Of a DNA stretch of 64,000 nt, positions 46,726-53,177 are shown piece by piece. Origin of the DNA: Halostella pelagica (GTDB lineage Archaea > Halobacteriota > Halobacteria > Halobacteriales > Natronoarchaeaceae); the NCBI GenBank assembly GCA_005954745.1, contig CP040678.1, positions 1 to 64,000 of the forward strand, read 5' to 3'. Each line of letters opens with the position of its first letter. Position 1 is the stretch's first letter. The position numbers and the translations under genes are program-made. Below the pieces are notes generated by a model. That model ran no database searches and was not told where the DNA came from. It saw only the letters and a list, made by a program, of their open reading frames with translations.

Positions 46726-47436
46726 ATGCAACTGATGAGTCGACCGCGTATCGCCGTGCTGAACGCCGCACACGATCCCGAGCACAACCGTCGAAACTTC
46801 CGGCGGGAGCTCGACGCCGATGTCGTGGAGTTCGACGTCGTCAGTCAGGAGCTCCCGGAGACGTTCGATTTCGACGGCTGTCTCGTCACGGGCTCTCGGG
46901 CGTCAGTATACTGGGACGAGGAGTGGATCGACCCCACCAAAGAGTGGGTCGAGACGGCTATCGACCGCGGCCTTCCGTTCCTCGGCGTCTGTTGGGGACA
47001 CCAGCTCCTCGCAGACGTGCTCGGCGGGCGCGTCGAACCCATGGGCGAGTACGAGATCGGCTACCGGACGGTCAAGCGAACTGGCGAGTCGCCGCTGCTC
47101 GCTGGCGTCGACGAGGCGTTCACTGCGTTTACCACCCACTCCGACGCCGTCGTCGACCTGCCGCCGGGCGCGGAGCACCTCGCGGAGAACGACTACTCGA
47201 TCCACGCTTTCCGAAAGGACCGCGTCTTCGGCGTCCAGTTCCACCCCGAGTACGACATGGAAACCGCCGAGTCGGTGACGAAAGGGAAGGACCTGCCGGA
47301 CCAGCGGATCCAGGCCGTGCTTGACGGCATCAACGAGGAGAACTACGCGGCCGCCTGCGAGGCCAAGACGCTGTTCGACAACTATCTCGAGTTCGTGCGG
47401 GAACTCCGAACCGGCGAGCCGTCGGCCGCAGACTGA
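46726..47436 (+). CDS. Class I glutamine amidotransferase (GMP-synthase-like domain)
   Basis: 236 residues; the ATG at 46735 (MSRPRIAVLNAAHDPEHNRR) is an equally likely start. The triad is Cys in FLGVCWGHQLLADVLGG, His and Glu in RVFGVQFHPEYDME. It is a stand-alone type-1 glutaminase of the group near GuaA subunit A, acting on gamma-glutamyl compounds or feeding ammonia to a partner. No partner synthetase lies beside it. A palindromic repeat begins right after the stop codon. Confidence 0.88.
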   Translation: MQLMSRPRIAVLNAAHDPEHNRRNFRRELDADVVEFDVVSQELPETFDFDGCLVTGSRASVYWDEEWIDPTKEWVETAIDRGLPFLGVCWGHQLLADVLGGRVEPMGEYEIGYRTVKRTGESPLLAGVDEAFTAFTTHSDAVVDLPPGAEHLAENDYSIHAFRKDRVFGVQFHPEYDMETAESVTKGKDLPDQRIQAVLDGINEENYAAACEAKTLFDNYLEFVRELRTGEPSAAD

Positions 47437-47437
47437 G

Positions 47438-47514
47438 ACTGTCGGCTGTACTCCCTTGAAGAATATCGGACCCCCCGGAGGCCCGAGTATCGTTACGAAG
47501 GTACAGCCGACAGT
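47438..47514 (+). repeat. Palindromic repeat, copy 1 (ACTGTCGGCTGTA family)
   Basis: 77 bp with perfect 13-bp ends ACTGTCGGCTGTA / TACAGCCGACAGT. It starts two bases after the TGA of the amidotransferase gene. The reverse complement of copy 2 (63154-63228) agrees with it over most of the length, including GAATATCGGACC and TTACGAAG. No open frame; a MITE-like or structural repeat. Confidence 0.8.
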
Positions 47515-47581
47515 ATGAGTCCGCCGGACCGACCGCGTTGCGACTGAACTTATTTACTTCGCGAGACTGAAACCGGGACCG

Positions 47582-50976: not shown

Positions 50977-51120
50977 CGCTCGAACGAGCGCGACGAACAA
51001 CCCGCCAGTTCCGGGGCGGGTACGAGTCGGCGGAGTGGATGCGTGAATTCGTCTTCGCAACGCTCGACGAGTTAGAACACGGGGGATGAGAAGGGACGCG
51101 CGGCCGACGATAGCCCGCCC

Positions 51121-52326
51121 TCACAGCGCTAACCCGTCGTCGACCCGCACGACCTCGCCGTTGACGTACGACGCGGCGTCGCTGGCCAGGAAAGAGATCA
51201 CGCCGGCGACTTCTTCAGGCGTGGCGACGCGGCCGCTCGCAGTGTCCGCCTCGACGGCCGACTCGTGGCCCTGCGACCCCTCCAACAGCTCTGTGTCGGT
51301 GTAGCCGGGCGCGACGGCATTGACGCGGATACCCTTTCCGCCGAGTTCGCGGGCCGCCGTCCGAGTGAGGCCGAGAACGCCCGCCTTGCTCGCGGCGTAG
51401 TTGGCCTGCCCGGCCTCGGAAAGCGGGACCGTTCGGTCGACGACGACCCCGACCCGGCCGGACGCGAGGTGGTCGGTCAGCGCCGGGAGCGCTCCCAGCA
51501 CGCGCTCGGGAACGTGGTCGAGCGCGTGTACGAGATGGTAGCCAAGGACCGACTGGTTCGCAAAGAACAGTCGCGGCGTCGCCACGGTCGGGACCGACCC
51601 GCTCGCCATCCCGAACGAGACGATCCGACCGACCGGCGCGAGCGCCTCGACGCTGGCGGCGAAGGCGTCGCCACCGACTCCGTCGACGACGAGGTCGACG
51701 CCGGCACCGTCAGTCCGGGCCAGCACGGCGTCCGCAACGTCCGTCTCCGTGTAGTCGATAGCGTGGTCGGCACCTAGCTCCCTGCTGCGGTCGCGTTTTG
51801 CCGCGGTACTCGCTGTTGCGAACACGGTGGCTCCGGCCGCGTCGGCCAACTGGACGGCGAGTGAGCCGACGCCGCCCGCTCCGGCGTGAACTAGCACCCG
51901 CTCCCCGGCCGACAGGTCGCCCCACTCGTGGAGGACGTTGTGGGCGGTCAGTCCCTGAACCGGCAGCGCCGTCGCCTCGGCCCAGGGAAGCGACTCGGGT
52001 ATCCGGAACGTCCGCTCGACCGGTGCCGTCGCCCTCGCCGCGTACCCACCGCTGGACGTGAGGGCGGCGACCCGGTCGCCGGCTTCGAGGTCGCTCCGCG
52101 CCGGGGCGGCCGTGACGGTGCCGGCGACCGCAAGACCGGGGACGAACGGCGGCGACGGCCCGTCGTGATAGTTCCCCCGGCGTTGCTCGATGTCCGCGAA
52201 GTTGACGCCCGCGGCCGCGACGTCGATGCTGACCTCGTCCGCGTTCGGGGTCGGCGCTGGCCGATCGGTGACAGTCAGAACCGAACTGTCACCGTATCCG
52301 GGGACTTCGACGGCTCGCATCATCAT
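51121..52326 (-). CDS. Chimera: zinc-free quinone oxidoreductase fused to the C-terminal part of a FabG-type SDR
   Basis: 401 residues from the first of three ATGs (52326, ATGA overlap with the upstream gene). Residues 1-295 are a QOR: RAVEVPGYGDSSVLTVTDRP, VHAGAGGVGSLAVQLADAAG and SFGMASGSVPTVATPRLFFA. At about 51410 (VDRTVPLSEA) the reading passes in frame into SDR sequence GQANYAASKAGVLGLTRTA, RVNAVAPGYTDTELLEG and the C-terminal FLASDAASYVNGEVVRVDDG. The QOR lacks about its last 30 residues, the SDR its first 140, including the Rossmann fold; the SDR YxxxK is kept. It looks like a deletion that joined neighbouring qor and fabG genes. A sequencing or assembly error cannot be excluded. Confidence 0.85.
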   Translation of the reverse strand: MMMRAVEVPGYGDSSVLTVTDRPAPTPNADEVSIDVAAAGVNFADIEQRRGNYHDGPSPPFVPGLAVAGTVTAAPARSDLEAGDRVAALTSSGGYAARATAPVERTFRIPESLPWAEATALPVQGLTAHNVLHEWGDLSAGERVLVHAGAGGVGSLAVQLADAAGATVFATASTAAKRDRSRELGADHAIDYTETDVADAVLARTDGAGVDLVVDGVGGDAFAASVEALAPVGRIVSFGMASGSVPTVATPRLFFANQSVLGYHLVHALDHVPERVLGALPALTDHLASGRVGVVVDRTVPLSEAGQANYAASKAGVLGLTRTAARELGGKGIRVNAVAPGYTDTELLEGSQGHESAVEADTASGRVATPEEVAGVISFLASDAASYVNGEVVRVDDGLAL

Positions 52327-53177
52327 TCTGCGGCCCTCCGTCCGGCGCCGTCTCCGTCGGGCAGTTGCGTCAGTCGGTCGCGGCGCTGCTGGACGGCAAA
52401 TGCCGCGAGACCATCGCTGTCGGGGCCCGGAAGGCGTTCCCAGCCCATCTTCTCGACGACGGCGTCGACTGGTTCGGCGAGTCCCGCGACGGTCTCCTCG
52501 ACGAACGACCGCTCGACCCTCTTGCTCCGCAGAAGGCCCGCGAGTCGGTCCATCCCGTACCCGACGTGCCGGCCCTCGTCCTGTCGGATGGCCTCGAACC
52601 CTTCGACGAGGGCCGGCAGCGACGGTCCGTCCGTCTCCGGGCCGAAGGTCGCTTCGACGGCGTGGAAGCCGGTCTGGCCGAAGACGCTCTCGACCGTGAG
52701 GTGATAGTGACAGAACGCGCTGGCGCGGTTCGCGGGCGTGTCCGCGTCCAGCAGTCGGTTCATCGCCGTCGCCGTCCGGTCGAACACCGTCTCGTAGGGG
52801 TCGGTGAACCACCGTCCGTCGGTCGGTTCGGTCGGTTCCAGCCCCCGGGCGTCTTCGGCCGGTCTGATGGCTTCGGTCCAGTAGCGGTCGAAGAACGCGG
52901 CGTGCTTGGCCTCTTCGTAGAGGTGGCTGGCGACGAACCGCTGGTCGCTTTCCCTGTTTACGGTCGCGGCCAGCGGGACCAGGTCCTCGGTCACGCTCTC
53001 CTCGCCCGCGCCGAACATGGCGACCGTCGCGCGCAACTGCGTAAACGCGGACCGGCTAAGCTCCGTGAGGGTCTCCCTGTCGGCCGTCAGGTCGACCTCG
53101 TACGGACTCCAGTGGCGCTCGACCGCGTTCCTGAAATATCGCTTTGCCGTTGCCCCGTCCTCGGTTGGCATGTCCAC
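52323..53177 (-). CDS. R2-like diiron oxidase (R2lox-type ferritin-like protein)
   Basis: 284 residues; the Met at residue 3 (53171) is an alternative start. The two Glu-x-x-His helices are SHLYEEAKHAAFFDRYWTEA and FEAIRQDEGRHVGYG, with Glu ligands in ATVNRESDQR-like and HLTVESVFGQTG segments. This matches the ribonucleotide-reductase R2-like ligand-binding oxidase family, which binds a Mn/Fe or Fe/Fe centre and a fatty acid. No RNR large subunit is nearby, arguing against an R2 role. The stop overlaps the fused QOR gene. Confidence 0.85.
   Translation of the reverse strand: MDMPTEDGATAKRYFRNAVERHWSPYEVDLTADRETLTELSRSAFTQLRATVAMFGAGEESVTEDLVPLAATVNRESDQRFVASHLYEEAKHAAFFDRYWTEAIRPAEDARGLEPTEPTDGRWFTDPYETVFDRTATAMNRLLDADTPANRASAFCHYHLTVESVFGQTGFHAVEATFGPETDGPSLPALVEGFEAIRQDEGRHVGYGMDRLAGLLRSKRVERSFVEETVAGLAEPVDAVVEKMGWERLPGPDSDGLAAFAVQQRRDRLTQLPDGDGAGRRAAE

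Follow-up and report, generated by a model that had tools for sequence, protein, structure and literature searches.

Fatty-acid synthesis in archaea is usually taken to proceed without ACP, whose machinery has been reported in just a few unrelated archaea, by way of horizontal transfer (PMC3533463). Ten haloarchaeal genomes from several families carry, on chromosomes and on plasmids, an intact cluster in the order R2-like ligand-binding oxidase (R2lox), quinone oxidoreductase (QOR), ACP, KAS, AcpS, FabD and FabG, all in one orientation (loci L026–L033, L140, L143 and L166, where L026 is Natrinema limicola and L031 and L032 both belong to Natronorubrum bangense). R2lox lies directly upstream of QOR in these ten genomes and a complete FabG follows about 3.5 kb downstream, the two enzymes being separated in every intact relative by an ACP of 81 aa, a FabF-like KAS of 406 aa, an AcpS-type phosphopantetheinyl transferase and FabD. 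The RefSeq annotation of the Haloferax mediterranei and N. bangense clusters gives these genes, and Pfam and NCBIfam concur. The gathering of ACP, KAS, holo-ACP synthase, malonyl transferase and ketoreductase that marks a type-II-FAS-like operon is thus present in the relatives, and it is absent from the locus described here. N. bangense has two copies of the cluster, one chromosomal and one on plasmid unnamed1, with equal match identities. Led by an R2-like oxidase gene, the intact cluster is a mobile FAS-like system that depends on ACP; no publication on an R2lox-ACP cluster in haloarchaea was found in the literature searched, which is no proof of absence.

The intact cluster contains no enoyl reductase besides QOR, and among the nearest solved relatives of QOR are enoyl-reductase domains from polyketide and fatty-acid synthases, for which reasons QOR may, judging from homology, be the enoyl reductase of the FAS-like system. 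In R2lox a Val-Tyr crosslink is known; the R2lox proteins of these clusters have a histidine (TGFHAVE) at the tyrosine of the GFY/GYY stretch of solved R2lox proteins, and because of this replacement the crosslink may be absent from them. One bacterial R2lox carries out alkane oxidation (PMC10867098).

The locus studied here lies in the window, by which we mean the whole stretch of DNA analysed, positions 1 to 64,000 of contig CP040678.1 of Halostella pelagica (64,000 nucleotides; source assembly of 3.94 Mb in four contigs, 99.8% complete). The window retains R2lox, QOR as far as codon 308 and the final 93 codons of FabG, and the interior of the cluster is missing. R2lox is intact (52323..53171, minus strand) and was the first gene of the ancestral cluster; NCBIfam R2lox models match it at scores below their cut-offs, and its E/EAKH and E/DEGRH metal-ligand motifs align with those of solved R2lox proteins (PDB), in which a GFY tyrosine stands where it has a histidine. 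Most intact clusters have an R2lox 70–78% identical to it. Its stop codon and the start of the next open reading frame overlap, just as the ends of R2lox and QOR overlap in H. mediterranei pHME505 (E6P09_RS15840–RS15870, encoding R2lox, QOR, ACP, KAS, holo-ACP synthase, FabD and FabG), and the two products are probably co-translated. All seven genes are whole in pHME505, whereas the window has lost the interior and carries the first and last enzymes as one fusion.

Reading of the open frames and their translation gives a single frame without a stop at 51121..52326 on the minus strand, encoding 401 aa, of which residues 1–304 derive from QOR, 305–308 (AGQA) are common to both parents and 309–401 derive from the C-terminal part of FabG. 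The QOR-derived part, a PIG3-type MDR protein, occupies 51415..52326 (minus strand), the junction 12-mer GCCGGGCAGGCC 51403..51414 (minus strand), and the FabG-derived part, 93 codons and a stop, 51121..51402 (minus strand). Profile searches divide the protein cleanly: Pfam and NCBIfam models ADH_N, ADH_zinc_N and quinone_pig3 match the N side to residue ~311, and adh_short_C2 and FabG models match residues ~303 to 399 from profile position ~138 onward. Against TIGR02824 the fusion scores 249 bits, below the cut-off of 296.8 and thus short of a full-length PIG3-type match, with model positions 1–311 of 325 aligned and the C-terminal end absent. An earlier note, made from the DNA alone, had described an in-frame chimera of QOR and a FabG-type SDR with a change of family near 51405–51420 and no stop or frame change, and these profiles bear it out. 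It was also right that the SDR lacks its nucleotide-binding half, since FabG residues 1–152 of 249 (N. limicola numbering) are missing, and with them the N-terminal Rossmann half (TGxxxGIG, NNAG) and the catalytic Asn and Ser, while YxxxK (YAASK) and the C-terminal substrate region are retained from NYAASK onward. Its statement that the Rossmann part of QOR survives likewise holds, the glycine-rich NADPH-binding motif HAGAGGVGSLAVQ (AGAGGVGS) being intact in a region modelled at pLDDT ~90. The loss from QOR, which it had put at 30 residues, is in fact 17, as intact homologues have 323 aa and the fusion keeps the equivalent of 1–306.

Both halves have close counterparts in the intact clusters. 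The QOR part is 84% identical to the QOR of H. mediterranei pHME505, 80% to that of N. limicola and 79–81% to those of Natrinema and Haloterrigena, and the haloarchaeal QORs of L026–L033 show 73–81% identity to the first half of the fusion. The C-terminal parts of FabG from intact clusters are about 75–90% identical to the second half (86% in pHME505). The N. limicola cluster has the same gene order, is undeleted, and carries the junction 12-mer in both qor and fabG: its qor reads GACGCCGGGCAGGCCCACGACGC and its fabG GGGGCCGGGCAGGCCAACTACGC, and the window reads GAGGCCGGGCAGGCCAACTACGC. This 12-mer is the longest exact repeat common to the two N. limicola genes and the sole one of at least 12 bp, and the best 20-mer match between them, 18 of 20 positions, is found there. 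It stands in one codon phase (AGQA) in both genes, so a join at this point is in frame whatever the length of the deletion, which in N. limicola would amount to 3,461 bp. The full repeat occurs in N. limicola only, and as the longest in-register identity at the site in other relatives is just 3–7 bp, the exact repeat in the ancestor of the window species is something that we infer.

We consider it likely that the open reading frame is the scar of a deletion of the operon interior at a short repeat and that the fusion protein is a young relic. The ancestor would have acquired the type-II-FAS-like operon R2lox-QOR-ACP-KAS-AcpS-FabD-FabG, and a single event between the short direct repeats in qor and fabG would then have removed about 3.5 kb, taking the final 17 codons of qor, the complete genes for ACP, KAS, AcpS and FabD, and fabG up to codon ~152, and leaving the second gene of the operon joined to the last. 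Repair could have been by microhomology-mediated end joining or by replication slippage. The former is a known route, since Haloferax volcanii produces deletions at microhomologies (PMC2700283, PMC7521656), and slippage is the alternative. Those deletions resemble the one proposed here in that their ends share a short identical sequence, again in a haloarchaeon; the deletions of PMC2700283, however, were of 6–977 bp with 3–5 bp of microhomology in a cut plasmid, whereas the loss in the window would be chromosomal, of ~3.5 kb between repeats of up to 12 bp, by a mechanism that we infer.

The gene order of the relatives, the repeat at the junction and the absence of FabD and AcpS argue for a deletion within the operon and not for a fusion of neighbours. 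The earlier note had proposed a deletion that fused adjacent genes of one operon and had suggested looking in relatives for separate qor and fabG genes by the R2-like oxidase gene. A deletion inside one operon beside that oxidase gene is strongly supported, and the ten genomes do have qor followed by fabG, but adjacency fails: four genes stand between them in all intact clusters, so that ~3.5 kb with four whole genes and parts of two others were removed, and we reject a fusion of neighbouring genes. The family models of FabD and AcpS had no match in any of the four contigs of the genome, with controls working, and no true KAS was found there, the KAS model matching only short thiolase-like stretches; relocation of the missing genes within the genome is rejected on these grounds. 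The same result bears on an assembly error, in which the real genome would hold the full operon and the assembler would have joined the two repeats. A short common repeat exactly at the join is what such an error would leave, but 12 bp is far below the usual assembly word sizes and the missing 3.5 kb, judged by FabD and AcpS, is in none of the contigs of this nearly complete assembly, and we regard the error as very unlikely.

An established two-domain QOR-SDR family with a dedicated function would also be in frame with both halves conserved. No second QOR-FabG fusion was found in 392 genomes of the order, in the genome contig collection (by a pattern-seeded scan) or in 72,556 plasmid records; a fusion widespread among relatives, which the earlier note had named as the result that would tell against its view, is therefore not seen. 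The break points, moreover, fall inside both the QOR and the FabG fold, away from domain borders. We reject this family as extremely improbable.

Whether the protein still works is a separate matter. We looked for decay by comparing columns invariant in the intact relatives and found none: changes occur at 2 of 148 such columns in QOR, 0 of 57 in FabG and 4 of 119 in R2lox, similar to the intact genomes, which means either that the event is recent or that the protein is still constrained, the two not being separated. Pairwise dN/dS of both halves is roughly 0.05 to 0.3 and mostly reflects the time before the deletion. AlphaFold predicts the intact N. limicola QOR with a mean pLDDT of 92 and a C-terminal strand-helix-strand (E294–299, H300–311, E317–322), and the fusion with a mean of 70, in which segments of the catalytic domain fall to 38–61 and the FabG tail to 25–51 around a nucleotide-binding core near 90. 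The closing helix and strand of the QOR catalytic domain are absent from the fusion model, and the nearly invariant QOR residue H307 is N. The Foldseek hits of the fusion model were QOR and further MDR proteins, CurK and other polyketide enoyl reductases among them. Because the alignments were shallow these predictions are only suggestive, but they favour a relic with an unclosed catalytic domain and an unfolded FabG tail, in which the NADPH-binding domain probably remains able to fold.

Both parental activities have most likely been lost, because QOR is without the helix and strand that close its catalytic domain and the SDR half would be unable to bind NAD(P), and the fusion protein is probably a non-working, recent relic. 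Of the two fates offered in the earlier note, nothing supports a new kind of activity, as the SDR part has neither its dinucleotide-binding half nor the catalytic Asn and Ser and is disordered in the predicted structure; a protein dead but still translated would be the better fit. It is also conceivable, though rather unlikely, that the same deletion left the QOR part active as an NADPH-dependent reductase of enoyl-thioesters or quinones that works alongside R2lox, the FabG piece either capping the C-terminus in place of the lost segment or being a tolerated tail. The intact AGAGGVGS motif, the well-predicted core and the lack of stops and of excess changes at conserved sites in both halves agree with this, but the helix and strand (N. 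limicola residues 300–322) have been replaced and H307 changed, the catalytic domain is predicted with far lower confidence than in the intact protein, and the ACP partners are gone. We give still less credence to a chimera kept by selection, whose QOR part would go on reducing an acyl or a quinone for the R2-like oxidase encoded next to it once the ACP-dependent part of the pathway had been discarded; were this true, R2lox with a truncated, re-capped reductase would be the surviving minimal system.

Returning to the deletion, we can ask how the ancestral cluster reached this genome. The congeners lack the cluster, and FabD was also not found in four of them. A genome of the window's own family (G007) has QOR to FabG without R2lox, and in the QOR tree it groups with Natronorubrum and Natronolimnohabitans with a support of 100, apart from the window, whose own position has a low support of 43–64. 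Given the placement of this QOR and the congeners without the cluster, it is likelier that the cluster was acquired horizontally and its interior lost afterwards, and vertical inheritance within the family is rejected as less likely. Where the window has R2lox and the fusion, the congeners have a kinase-like gene between an MFS gene and DCC1-like and cupin genes. Just after the MFS gene, window positions 51022–51090 (plus strand) hold a possible C-terminal remnant of that kinase-like gene, with weak similarity, and because of this possible remnant the sequence suggests that the R2lox cluster took the place of the kinase-like gene.

Two further observations concern the surroundings and the relatives. 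A dispersed hairpin repeat of ~80 bp lies at window positions 47436–47520 (ACTGTCGGCTGTAC ... GTACAGCCGACAGT); this genome holds ~30 or more copies of 75–95% identity, and congeners have some too. The repeat folds strongly (z −6.2) and is MITE- or REP-like, and an Rfam search of 44–58 kb gave no match, the repeat included. In genome G300 (L144, 7505–9510) FabD directly follows R2lox, and QOR, ACP, KAS, AcpS and FabG are not beside them; this looks like another reduction of the cluster, independent of that in the window, in a genome with a further FabD-family gene on contig C7.

The fusion is a clean but ordinary case of gene-cluster loss, for which comparison with relatives reveals the precursor, the break points and a repeat that probably lay behind the in-frame join. 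More interesting than the fusion, and worth following up, is the intact cluster with R2lox at its head. Haloarchaea are seen here both to gain and to lose an ACP-dependent FAS-like cluster, and its intact form gives a concrete starting point for finding which acyl product these archaea make.
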